This document shows positions 15,456-47,910 of a DNA stretch of 64,000 nucleotides, in pieces. The stretch is from positions 3,368,001-3,432,000 of the forward strand of contig NZ_JBBOUI010000001.1 in assembly GCF_038005985.1 (NCBI RefSeq), read 5' to 3'. Under the pieces are notes generated by a model. The model worked only from the letters and a program-made list of their open reading frames with translations. It was not told the DNA's origin and searched no databases. The stretch's first letter is position 1. Each line of letters starts with the position of its first letter. Source of the stretch: Solibacillus sp. FSL R7-0682. Its GTDB lineage: Bacteria > Bacillota > Bacilli > Bacillales_A > Planococcaceae. Position numbers and translations under genes: made by a program.

Positions 15456-15869
15456 TTACACCTGTACGAGTGGCAGTGGATCCTCAACTTCGGGTAGCAT
15501 AAAATCTACTGGTATTGGTTTTTCCTGCTCAATGCGATCGACTACACCTGGAGATTTTAATGCATAAAATCGGACATCCTCTATAACAATTTCCGTTGTA
15601 TATACCTTTTGGTTGTCTCGATTTAAGTACGAACGAGTTTGAATTCGACCATTTACGCCAACTAAGGATCCTTTCCCGCAATATTTGACGATATGCTCTG
15701 CCATTTTCCCATTAGCTACGCAAAAAATGAAATCCGCATCAATGGTTCCTTGGCTATTTTTAAAGCTACGATTAATCGCAAGGACAAAGTTTGTATGATG
15801 CCGTTCCTCTGACAGCTGCTTCAGTACTGGGTCCTTTGTAATTCTACCGACGAGTCCGACTTGGTTCAT
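15456..15869 (-). CDS. ssbB: Single-stranded DNA-binding protein, SsbB type
   Basis: 137-residue OB-fold protein. Residues 1-105 carry the SSB core: MNQVGLVGRITKDP, NFVLAINRSFKN, ADFIFCVANGK and VGVNGRIQTRSY. The C-terminus ends in EVEDPLPLVQV and lacks the DDDLPF-type acidic tip of the replicative SSB. That, its size and its position beside ywpF identify the B. subtilis YwpH/SsbB lineage, which protects incoming DNA during transformation. AGGGAGGT lies seven bases before the ATG. The gene diverges from ywpF across 257 bases containing ComK-like A/T boxes (see findings). Competence in this organism is not shown. Confidence 0.88.
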   Translation of the reverse strand: MNQVGLVGRITKDPVLKQLSEERHHTNFVLAINRSFKNSQGTIDADFIFCVANGKMAEHIVKYCGKGSLVGVNGRIQTRSYLNRDNQKVYTTEIVIEDVRFYALKSPGVVDRIEQEKPIPVDFMLPEVEDPLPLVQV

Positions 15870-15933
15870 TGCTCTACCTCCCTTCTTTTTGAGATGACTT
15901 CATCATAATCGAGGGAGTTTTATTTTAGCAAAA

Positions 15934-17069: not shown

Positions 17070-17171
17070 AAAAAAATCCCTCCTTTCAGATATGCGATCA
17101 AAGTCAATCACCAAAAGTGATCGTACATAGATTGCCCGGGAAAGGAAGGATCTATCCTAAATAAAAATGTG

Positions 17172-43973: not shown

Positions 43974-44537
43974 TTAAGTTTGGGTTTTTTTCTGTTTCTT
44001 TTTCTTCCACCAATCATAAAGAAATGATGGTGGTTTTTCTTTTTTCGATTCTTCTGGCGGGTTACAAAGTGTTGGGAACACGCCACAAAACCAATTTTCT
44101 CCGCGCCCATTGCCTATAATATAAACAACTGAATTGTATTTATTTTGCGGATAAAAATGATGATTCTGCATTTTTGGTGGGAATAAGTTATCCCCTGTTT
44201 GCATCTTAATGTTCACATGTGAATAATTTTTCTGAATATCTTGATAAATCCGTTCATAGCTGTGGATATCCTCCAGCTTTTCATTGTTTGTTAAAATAAA
44301 GCTCTGAATATTTTCAACAATTTCATGTTTTAATTGTTGATCTTTCGTAGAAGAGCTATTTGCAATAACACGAATTTTTACTTGCTCGTTCGATGCGGTT
44401 TGCATTGTTCGAACGTCCTCTACAAAATTAGGTACTAATAAAATCGCGCCATATAATACTAGTAAACTTGCGAACAATTGAAGAGTTGCAATTACTAGAG
44501 AATTATTCTTCTTTTGAATCTCGTAATCATTTAACAT
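43974..44537 (-). CDS. spoIIR: Stage II sporulation protein R
   Basis: Forespore-made signal protein that crosses to the intermembrane space and triggers SpoIIGA to activate sigma-E. 187 residues from ATG 44537, eight bases after AAGGGGG. N-terminal hydrophobic segment at about 14-34; SpoIIR domain with KIRVIANSSSTKDQQLKHEI and ENWFCGVFPTLC. The C-terminus ends in a basic Lys-rich tail. Its ribosome-binding site is buried in a 13-bp hairpin whose other arm lies within a sigma-F promoter (separate entries). prmC lies 44 bases upstream. Confidence 0.94.
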   Translation of the reverse strand: MLNDYEIQKKNNSLVIATLQLFASLLVLYGAILLVPNFVEDVRTMQTASNEQVKIRVIANSSSTKDQQLKHEIVENIQSFILTNNEKLEDIHSYERIYQDIQKNYSHVNIKMQTGDNLFPPKMQNHHFYPQNKYNSVVYIIGNGRGENWFCGVFPTLCNPPEESKKEKPPSFLYDWWKKKKQKKTQT

Positions 44538-44540
44538 ATT

Positions 44541-44578
44541 GATTCCCCCTTGCAAACTATTGTTAGCAAGAGGGAATC
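44541..44578 (-). promoter_or_regulatory. Hairpin sequestering the spoIIR ribosome-binding site
   Basis: Leftward GATTCCCTCTTGC (44566-44578) pairs with GCAAGGGGGAATC (44541-44553) over 13 bp with one G-U pair and a 12-base loop. The right arm is the Shine-Dalgarno of spoIIR. No T-run follows, so it is not a terminator. Confidence 0.8.
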
Positions 44579-44587
44579 ATTTTATTC
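44558..44587 (-). promoter_or_regulatory. Candidate sigma-F promoter of spoIIR
   Basis: Leftward GAATA (44583-44587, 4/5 to GYATA), 15-base spacer, GCTAACAATA (44558-44567, 9/10 to GGNRAYAMTR). The -35 overlaps the prmC stop codon. Transcription would begin near 44551, excluding the left arm of the hairpin. Confidence 0.72.
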
Positions 44588-45445
44588 ACTAATTTCACAA
44601 AAAACAATACGATCTTTTCCATTAATATCTTTTACTATTGATATTTTCGCTTTCGGAAAACTTTGCTTGAACAAGTTTGCCACCGCTTCGCCTTGTGTAT
44701 AGCCGATTTCAAGTCCGATTAATGCAGGGGTTTTCATCATAGGTGGTAACTGCTCGGCAAGCTTACGATATAAAATCAAGCCCTCCTCATCTGCAAATAA
44801 AGCACTATGTGGCTCATGGGCTACGACAACATCAGACATCTCCTTCATCTCTTCAAATGCAATATAAGGTGGGTTGGATAATACAACATCCCAAGTTTCT
44901 TCTTTTATTGGAGCTGTTAAATCACCTAATTTAAATGTGATTTCTGCTTGTAATTGCTCAGCATTACGCTTCGCAGTTTGTAGCGCTACCTCTGACAAAT
45001 CTGTTGCGGTCACATTTGCTTCTGGCCATTCGTGCTTCATCGTAATCGCAATTGCTCCACTTCCCGTGCCGATATCTGCAAGCTTTAGCACCTTTTTACT
45101 ACCGAATAATTTTGTCATTCGCTCGATTGCACCAACGATTAATTCTTCCGTTTCCGGTCGTGGAATTAATACGGATTCATCGACTAGGAACGTTCGTCCA
45201 TAAAATTCTTCCTGCCCTGTAATGTATTGTACAGGTATGCCTTTTACATGCTGCTGTATATAGGATTGGAACACTCTACCTTTATCTTCTGGTAATGTGT
45301 CGTGCATACGCATCATTAACCCGGAATAATTCGTCTGTAAAATATGCTGAAGTAATAATCTTGCAGCATTCCCTTCGCGACCATTTTCCTCTAAAAAAGA
45401 AGAAGCCCCATTAAGGGCCTCAAAAATTGTTTTATGCATTTTCAT
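44582..45445 (-). CDS. prmC: Peptide chain release factor N5-glutamine methyltransferase
   Basis: Methylates the Gln of the GGQ motif in release factors. 287 residues; N-terminal helical RF-binding domain (1-90), SAM motif [12 protein letters not shown], catalytic NPPY. Start ATG 45445 overlaps the prfA end by 14 bases, so the enzyme is coupled to its substrate. Its stop lies inside the spoIIR promoter. Confidence 0.96.
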
Positions 45446-46508
45446 TTAAGTTGGCAAGTCGTGTTGCTTGCTCATCTAAAATTAGTGCATCGATAATTTC
45501 ATCCAGCTTACCTTCTACGATTTGGTCTAATTTTTGAATTGTTAAACCAATACGGTGATCTGTTACACGGTTTTGTGGATAGTTATACGTACGGATACGT
45601 TCAGAACGGTCGCCTGTTCCTACTGCCGATTTACGTGTTGAATCGATTTCTGCTTGTGCTTCTTCACGGTGTTTTTCTGCTACACGAGCTACTAAAATTT
45701 TCATCGCTTTCTCACGGTTTTTAATTTGAGAGCGCTCATCTTGCATCGATACAACAACACCTGTTGGTAAGTGGGTCATACGTACTGCAGACATCGTTGT
45801 ATTTACCGACTGACCACCGGCACCAGAAGATGCGAATGTGTCAACACGGATATCTTTTTCGTGAATTTCTACTTCTTCTACATGTACTTCTGGTAAACAT
45901 GCTACCGTTGCTGTTGAAGTGTGAATACGGCCTTGTGACTCTGTCGCAGGGACACGTTGTACACGGTGAGCACCGTTTTCATATTTAAACTTCGAGTAAG
46001 CTCCTTGTCCATTAATCATTAAGATTACTTCTTTAAAGCCCCCAGCTGGGTTCGCTGACGCTTCCATGACATCAATTTTCCAGCCTTGCGCTTCAGCGTA
46101 ACGAGTGTACATACGGAATAGGTCACCTGCAAAAATATTCGCTTCGTCCCCACCAGCAGCACCACGAATCTCCATAATAACGTTTTTTGAATCGTTCGGG
46201 TCCTTAGGTATTAGTAAAATGCGTAAGCGCTCTTCTAAATCTGGAATTTGTTTATTTAAATCATTAAACTCTTCCTTCATCATTTCAAGCATATCTGCAT
46301 CTTTTTCTATTTCCATTAATTCGCGTGTATCTGCTAATTGCTCTTTCACTGATTTGTATTCGCGGTATACTTCAACCATGTCTTGAATATCTGATTGCTC
46401 TTTTGAATACTCACGTAATTTTTTTGAATCACTAACGATTTCTGGATCACTTAGTAATTCATTTAATCTTTCATAACGGTCTTCAACCGCCTGTAAACGA
46501 TCAAACAT
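45432..46508 (-). CDS. prfA: Peptide chain release factor 1
   Basis: Terminates translation at UAA and UAG. 358 residues; codon-reading tripeptide PAT in VPATESQG and the hydrolytic GGQ in [11 protein letters not shown]-terminal coiled-coil domain 1. GAGGTGAAA precedes the ATG. First gene of prfA-prmC; read-through from here would reach spoIIR. Confidence 0.97.
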
Positions 46509-47776: not shown

Positions 47777-47910
47777 ATTCGTTTTCTCCTCTCGCCCTGA
47801 ACCATCCGGAACAGAGTTATTTCGAACTGCACCTTACATAGCCCGAATATGTCACTGCGGCAAGCGCAATGTTTTGAGGTCAGCTATATATGTGCACGTT
47901 ACATACCTAA
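47777..47910 (-). promoter_or_regulatory. Long rpmE leader, possible L31 autoregulatory RNA
   Basis: About 130 transcribed, gene-free bases between the promoter and rpmE, relatively GC-rich with several self-complementary segments such as GTGCAC and the repeated ATGTAA. L31 leader RNAs are known in Firmicutes; assignment here is by position and length, not by a verified structure. Confidence 0.4.

Follow-up and report, generated by a model that had tools for sequence, protein, structure and literature searches.

In Bacillus subtilis, the forespore gene sigG has its own sigma-F promoter and lies behind a gene of another expression programme, spoIIGA-sigE, and a large hairpin is proposed to prevent the translation of transcripts that read through from PspoIIG; transcripts that start at PsigG cannot form it. 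Mearls 2018 credits this hairpin to Masuda 1988 and Sun 1991 (PMC5942855). The same paper also describes a smaller hairpin of five pairs, present in the normal sigG transcript, which occludes the ribosome-binding site (RBS) and has a damping effect rather than acting as a lock. Like sigG, as far as that description goes, spoIIR of Solibacillus is a forespore gene that has a predicted sigma-F promoter of its own and follows a gene from another programme, and its predicted read-through hairpin could not form in a transcript from that promoter. The differences are that prfA-prmC rather than spoIIGA-sigE lie upstream, that the promoter spacer doubles as the left arm of the hairpin, and that the predicted leader measures only ~14 nt. 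With the smaller sigG leader hairpin, the spoIIR hairpin shares the occlusion of an RBS in a sporulation mRNA.

The same one-arm logic operates in the transposase genes of IS10 and IS50, where transcripts that enter from outside fold over the RBS and the transcript that the element itself makes is missing one arm, although there it serves self-restraint of a mobile element rather than developmental timing. Late genes of phage T4 follow it as well, with a long early transcript that is silent and a short late transcript that is translated, as phage temporal control with no involvement of sigma-F. The first-pass annotation of the DNA studied here, which proposed the spoIIR hairpin, named phage late genes as the precedent; the principle was indeed already known, but sigG of B. 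subtilis is the closer case, to judge from its description in PMC5942855. The annotation knew of no such lock for spoIIR, and our literature search by the name spoIIR found none either, although older subscription papers may say more; literature on spoIIR together with prmC yielded nothing. As far as searched, the principle is already published for sigG, and spoIIR would be a further, widespread case.

RESULTS

A predicted hairpin covers the spoIIR ribosome-binding site

We analysed a window of 64,000 nt from the genome of Solibacillus sp. FSL R7-0682. Open reading frames and family matches place prfA, prmC, and spoIIR in this order on the minus strand of the window (Table 1), with 44 nt separating the spoIIR ATG from the stop codon of prmC. 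The spoIIR product matched TIGR02837 with an E value of 1.9e-17 and 63 bits, which is below the model cut-off of 152, and matched PF09551 with 60.6 bits, which is over the cut-off; its start, ML[ND/H]DY, is common to 11 aligned proteins of the genus. Following prmC, the elements are arranged 5' to 3' as the -35 element, the 15-nt spacer, the -10 element, the Shine-Dalgarno sequence (SD), and the ATG.

Table 1. Features of the prfA-prmC-spoIIR locus, in positions of the window
Feature	Position	Strand	Sequence or remark	Basis
prfA (release factor 1)	45432..46508	-		TIGR00019, E 5e-164; ORF
prmC (release factor methyltransferase)	44582..45445	-	directly upstream of spoIIR	TIGR03534, E 5e-81
prmC stop	44582-44584	-	overlapped by the -35 element	
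spoIIR	43974..44537	-	187 aa; ATG 44537-44535	TIGR02837 and PF09551
-35 element of the sigma-F-type promoter	44583..44587	-	GAATA	read-back of the sequence; matrix from 169 loci
Promoter spacer	44568..44582	-	AAATGATTCCCTCTT; 15 nt; holds most of the left arm	read-back; spacer statistics
-10 element	44558..44567	-	GCTAACAATA; first two bases are part of the left arm	read-back; matrix
Left (5') hairpin arm	44566..44578	-	GATTCCCTCTTGC; upstream of the predicted transcription start	folding; read-back
Right (3') hairpin arm	44541..44553	-	GCAAGGGGGAATC; includes the SD	folding; read-back
SD of spoIIR	44545..44551	-	AAGGGGG	read-back
Predicted sigma-F transcription start	44550..44553	-	leader ~13-16 nt	5-8 nt past the -10 element

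The first-pass annotation had described a 13-bp stem that hides the spoIIR SD. The coordinates proved exact on read-back, and the pairing of the two arms over 13 bp was confirmed; the description needs amending in that one of these pairs is G-U and the predicted helix comprises 14 bp plus 3 inner pairs. The read-back and the promoter matrix described below also bore out the placement of the left arm, which is made up of most of the promoter spacer and two bases of the -10 element. Folding of the two transcripts gave the difference that the annotation's reading calls for. The read-through RNA (minus strand, 44640 to 44500) folded at -35.5 kcal/mol (z of -5.9), with 0 of 200 dinucleotide shuffles as good, versus -3.0 kcal/mol for RNAs starting at 44550 or 44553, which does not improve on their shuffles and leaves the SD mostly open in the predictions. 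The energy required to open the spoIIR SD, 21.1 kcal/mol, ranked first in a set of 354 genes from 464 kb of this genome, for which the second-best value was 14.9 and the median 2.7 kcal/mol. In the predicted folds, the hairpin of the long transcript covers the RBS, as expected of a read-through lock of the sigG type. A comparison of positions 44300-44800 with Rfam gave no family at the gathering score (best, 19.7 bits versus 55 required), and a known RNA family was set aside for the spoIIR hairpin.

A predicted sigma-F-type promoter lies between the arms

We started a promoter matrix from a sigma-F-like seed and trained it on the regions upstream of 169 Bacilli spoIIR genes. The outcome was G(A/T)(A/T)TA, 15 nt, G-N-C-N-A-(C/T)-A-(A/C)-T-G, a motif that we take to agree with the sigma-F consensus. 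The promoter score was above the 99th percentile of shuffled upstream regions in 154 of 169 loci and above the 95th in 164 of 169, figures that are optimistic because the matrix was trained on the same loci, and of the 126 loci that entered the matrix, 125 had a 15-nt spacer. Transcription starts were taken from motif distance, at 5 to 8 nt past the -10 element. When the assumed start was varied from 1 to 9 nt past it, the median SD-opening energy stayed low, ranging only between 1.7 and 0.6 kcal/mol in the Planococcaceae and between 2.2 and 1.6 kcal/mol in other Bacilli. The motif is strong and is placed so that the promoter's own transcript would be predicted to begin past the left arm.

If transcription instead started upstream of 44578, the hairpin would be part of the true spoIIR mRNA and could damp or regulate translation in the forespore or sense a ligand or temperature. 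The small RBS hairpin in the B. subtilis PsigG leader, which damps translation 2- to 4-fold (PMC5942855), would be a model for such a role. Against it, the conserved promoter motif sets the start within the hairpin, neither a sigma-70-type promoter nor an Rfam family at its gathering score was detected in 44300-44800, and we consider an in-mRNA role very unlikely.

The predicted lock extends through the Bacilli

In Solibacillus, the SD was paired upstream of the predicted start in 16 of 16 loci, with probabilities of 0.61 to 1.0, and 14 of the 16 beat a promoter-fixed shuffle at 0.05. The annotation had named, as evidence against its reading, close relatives that retain spoIIR but have lost the pairing; none was found among these loci. 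Pairing of the SD upstream of the start with a probability of >0.5 was predicted in 90 of 99 Planococcaceae loci, a set that includes duplicates (L050/L077 and L051/L079; 84 to 89 distinct sequences were used where stated), and in 55 of 70 loci from other Bacilli. Three further duplicates, L047-L049 (of L005, L006, and L012), were left out of the counts, and L103-L123 are outside the analysed set. The spoIIR starts of L076 and L084 were set by hand, and the automatic starts are wrong for L146 and L163; all counts other than the corrected-start check use these automatic starts.

Median probabilities that the SD is unpaired were 0.14 in read-through RNA versus 0.85 in RNA from the sigma-F start for the 99 Planococcaceae loci and 0.22 versus 0.63 for the 70 other Bacilli. 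For 89 distinct Planococcaceae sequences, the median costs of opening the SD and the stretch from the SD to the AUG were 9.9 and 13.8 kcal/mol in read-through RNA and 0.6 and 2.4 kcal/mol from the sigma-F start; for the 70 other Bacilli, they were 7.9 and 12.4 kcal/mol and 1.7 and 4.5 kcal/mol, respectively. The medians of 57 control genes from 30 loci of the class were 3.5 and 7.4 kcal/mol. On these folding predictions, the lock is widespread in the Bacilli, beyond the Planococcaceae.

The nine Planococcaceae loci without SD pairing upstream of the start belong to genera g5 and g2 or are L086. Both genera seemed unlocked by the SD-only metric, and the SD-to-AUG metric revealed re-wired hairpins in which the spacer does not pair with the SD and another helix closes the SD and the start codon (13.0 kcal/mol in g5 and 19.0 kcal/mol in g2). 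Among the other Bacilli, 15 of 70 loci had a pairing probability of 0.5 or less, for example L139, where the hairpin sits 3' of the start, L143, L158, and L177; L189, L191, and L193 were further loci of this kind, and L163 had no RBS lock even with a corrected start.

In this genome, the hairpin begins 3 nt past the prmC stop, as might be expected if it served the prfA-prmC transcript as a 3' end, stability structure, or terminator and its overlap with the RBS were incidental. No U-run follows the stem, and the scan of 44300-44800 found no terminator-like site. Loci with long gaps between prmC and spoIIR also argue against this origin, as the hairpin mostly stays with the spoIIR RBS. It persists across gaps of 184-402 nt, in L046 (402 nt; SD-pairing probability, 1.0) and in L055-57 and L060 (184-358 nt; SD-to-AUG opening, 13.3-13.5 kcal/mol), and across gaps of ~444-870 nt, in L127 (444 nt; 0.80) and L128 (870 nt; 0.93), neither of which is significant by shuffle, and in L146 (~740 nt after start correction; RBS opening, 11.4). 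Two loci are exceptions, L143 (207 nt; SD-pairing probability of only 0.08) and L153 (192 nt, with a doubtful start), in which the hairpin was not seen at spoIIR. We give this origin very little chance, and a terminator or prmC 3' hairpin was rejected as the main reading in view of the scan and the long-gap loci.

The family search left 65 of 250 family genomes without a SpoIIR match. Three g2 genomes carry a weakly matching 173-aa form of SpoIIR (L080-L082); for these, too, the RBS is predicted to be closed in the read-through RNA. One Planococcaceae genome, for which 7% contamination is listed, has two equal-scoring spoIIR matches 3.2 kb apart (G103:C3:729535-729867 and 732747-733079), which perhaps reflect a duplication or an assembly error.

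Arm swaps and compensatory changes point to selection on pairing

RNAalifold found no single consensus structure (0.0) for 84 aligned Planococcaceae sequences. A common consensus fails because the pairing register differs between genera, and we therefore used arm swaps to assess pairing. Across 13 genera, the native arms had a mean energy of -15.8 kcal/mol versus -11.3 kcal/mol (sd 0.88) with permuted right arms, and 0 of 2000 permutations were as low. The corresponding values for the other Bacilli, limited by promoter score and flank limits to 62 of 70 loci, were -25.4 versus -19.7 (sd 0.39), and the lowest of 5000 permutations reached -21.1. Genus g5 behaved differently, its native pairing (-8.7) being less stable than that of chimeras with the g5 right arm (-9.9). 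With GC-matched partners, of which 38 of the 62 loci had at least 5, the native combination was better in 35 of 38 loci, with a mean gain of 5.6 kcal/mol. In a control with 200 ordinary genes out of the 354 from this genome, which used only 60 nt upstream, the gain was just 0.3 kcal/mol.

The first-pass annotation had also named covariation in related Planococcaceae as a check, and compensatory changes are present. We counted them in 28 of the 84 sequences, those of register 15, a group that leans towards structure because it was chosen by pairing and in which related sequences inflate the counts. In this group, 85.7% of cells pair versus 76.3% in shuffles, and 35 cells are doubly changed, where shuffles average 13.6 (sd 3.7); none of the 500 shuffles reaches either value. 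The score was 0.468, and slid partners scored no higher than 0.289. Two further counts were weak: 7 pairs carried at least one double change versus 5.2 in shuffles, and 35 of the 500 shuffles had at least as many; for the count of pair types, 22 of the 500 shuffles did as well. Judged from these alignments and swaps, the pairing is conserved with compensatory change, and even the registers change.

Shuffling of the spacer with the promoter elements fixed was less decisive for single loci. The SD still paired upstream with a mean probability of 0.52-0.54, as it might if a C/T-rich spacer and a G/A-rich SD paired by composition, that is, by chance. A pyrimidine-rich spacer alone pairs with the SD about half the time, and the shuffle is for this reason only moderately significant per locus, with a p value of ≤0.05 in 57 of 99 Planococcaceae loci and 20 of 70 loci from other Bacilli. 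An energy version gave mean z values of -1.78 and -1.76 and p values of ≤0.05 in 36 of 84 and 28 of 65 loci, these z-scores being computed without L153, L158, L175, and L178, which have doubtful starts or promoters, and without L131, the promoter score of which is just below the limit; the z values of g5 and g2 averaged above zero. Chance pairing does not account for the arm swaps, which keep composition and lose 4.5-5.7 kcal/mol (5.6 when GC matched), for doubly changed cells above all 500 shuffles, or for an SD-opening energy at the top of 354 genes. The arm swaps in particular count strongly against chance complementarity of the arms, which we consider extremely improbable.

The dyad overlaps the promoter and could be a DNA operator of a forespore regulator such as RsfA, which modulates sigma-F genes in B. 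subtilis. An operator fits poorly with arm sequences and a pairing register that vary between genera while complementarity is kept. It also fits poorly with the excess of G-U over A-C combinations in registers 15 (67 to 9), 14 (40 to 17), and 12 (17 to 2), which is mostly as a sense RNA would give; register 10 shows no such excess (4 to 5), and the count leans towards structure because the registers were chosen by pairing. We rate an operator as highly unlikely and rejected RsfA or another protein as the explanation, as the dyad holds no conserved binding sequence and the arms diverge between genera.

The upstream neighbour of spoIIR differs outside the Bacilli

A prmC gene lies upstream of spoIIR in 154 of 169 Bacilli loci, and 14 of the 15 loci without a prmC match had only 341-530 nt of upstream DNA. 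The gene is codirectional, belongs to another expression programme, and is separated from spoIIR by no terminator-like site (the terminator scan covered this window). In a survey beyond the Bacilli, spoIIR was found in 103 of 119 genomes, three of which are Bacilli, and we analysed the best-scoring 30 of the 103, all non-Bacilli from other classes of the phylum. None of these 30 loci had prmC upstream, and in 18 the gene immediately upstream was sigG-like, as judged by a C-terminal signature; two of the 18 were checked by family search with 150-residue pieces, and the best match was spore_sigG.

The 18 loci behind a sigG-like gene showed background structure, with median SD and SD-to-AUG opening energies of 3.5 and 5.3 kcal/mol. 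The medians were 8.4 and 12.5 kcal/mol in 65 Bacilli loci (p values of 2e-6 and 1.5e-8 against the 18; same exclusions as for the z-scores), a comparison in which phylogeny and neighbour are confounded, and 6.45 and 9.85 kcal/mol in the other 12 non-Bacilli loci (p values of 0.015 and 0.003). The strongest three of these 12 were L214, behind a Ger(x)C spore germination gene, and L215 and L218, behind genes without a family match. The structure of L214 is strong (11.3) though it follows a spore germination gene, so this locus does not fit a strict neighbour rule and counts against it. The lack of prmC and the background structure behind sigG outside the Bacilli fit a lock directed against prfA-prmC read-through.

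For sigG of Solibacillus itself, we predicted a long hairpin over the SD and the start codon in 16 of 16 genomes (L244-L259), with a loose sigma-F/G promoter pattern inside it in each of the 16. The gene follows a sigma-factor gene of ~250 codons, presumably sigE, and the arrangement resembles, by description, the one given for B. subtilis sigG in PMC5942855.

Other hairpins and leaders in the window

At ~17070-17160 on the minus strand, a hairpin formed by GATCCTTCCTTTC with GAAAGGAGGGATTTT buries an SD and is followed by a T-run and the ATG (17069) of a gene for a small Asp/Asn-rich lipoprotein with no Pfam match. Its SD-opening energy ranked 3 of 354 in this genome. Matches to the lipoprotein occur in 16 of 16 Solibacillus genomes, and the hairpin was plain in 14 of the 16 loci folded (the automatic start was wrong in L278 and L279). 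This hairpin has no Rfam family and could be a lock or an attenuator. The sole Rfam match above the gathering score in the window was an L31-Firmicutes ribosomal protein leader at 47786-47816. At ~15880-15920 on the minus strand, CTCCCTC can base-pair with the SD in front of an SSB-family gene whose ATG is at 15869; this gene ranked 8 of 354.

DISCUSSION

A promoter-straddling translational lock on spoIIR is, in our models, the best explanation for these results, with a probability of about 0.8, and the spoIIR hairpin is real and probably functional. The hairpin, the promoter motif, their geometry, the conservation, the compensatory change, and the neighbour-gene association were all computed. 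From them, we infer where the mRNA begins, that read-through takes place, that translation is silenced, and what the lock would be for.

In the mechanism that we propose, a read-through transcript of prfA-prmC would carry both arms, form the long hairpin over the spoIIR RBS, and go untranslated. In the forespore, sigma-F RNA polymerase would start at the promoter that has the left arm as its -35/-10 spacer, and the resulting mRNA would begin at or just before the SD, lack the left arm, and be translated. Predivisional and mother cells contain pro-sigma-E and SpoIIGA, and SpoIIR would thereby be kept from cells so equipped, both those in which a forespore has still to form and the mother cell. 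Sigma-E was activated in growing B. subtilis engineered for SpoIIR, SpoIIGA, and pro-sigma-E (PMC4703394), which gives a reason to bar SpoIIR from predivisional and mother cells. The annotation's proposal that the hairpin holds off the sigma-E trigger in vegetative cells is supported as to the lock, but the cells at risk would probably be the predivisional and mother cells rather than vegetative cells generally. Ribosomes that end prmC translation 3 nt before the left arm might briefly open the hairpin and weaken the silencing.

We offer a broader rule only tentatively and would sooner doubt than assert it: a forespore gene for an irreversible step would gain and keep a promoter-straddling lock when it lies behind a gene of another programme and would be without one behind a forespore gene. 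The cases under this rule are spoIIR behind prfA-prmC and sigG behind spoIIGA-sigE, with spoIIR behind sigG outside the Bacilli as the converse. Under it, locks would be re-invented with new sequences and registers, so that the target of selection would be the logic rather than an RNA passed down by descent. The reading of the spoIIR hairpin as a lock predicts that lock strength tracks the identity of the upstream gene. The surprising part is the spread through the Bacilli together with the re-invented registers. How a leak of SpoIIR is prevented behind housekeeping genes was apparently never asked in the literature searched; if true, a lock of such breadth would give the SpoIIR/sigma-E checkpoint an additional, translational level of control.
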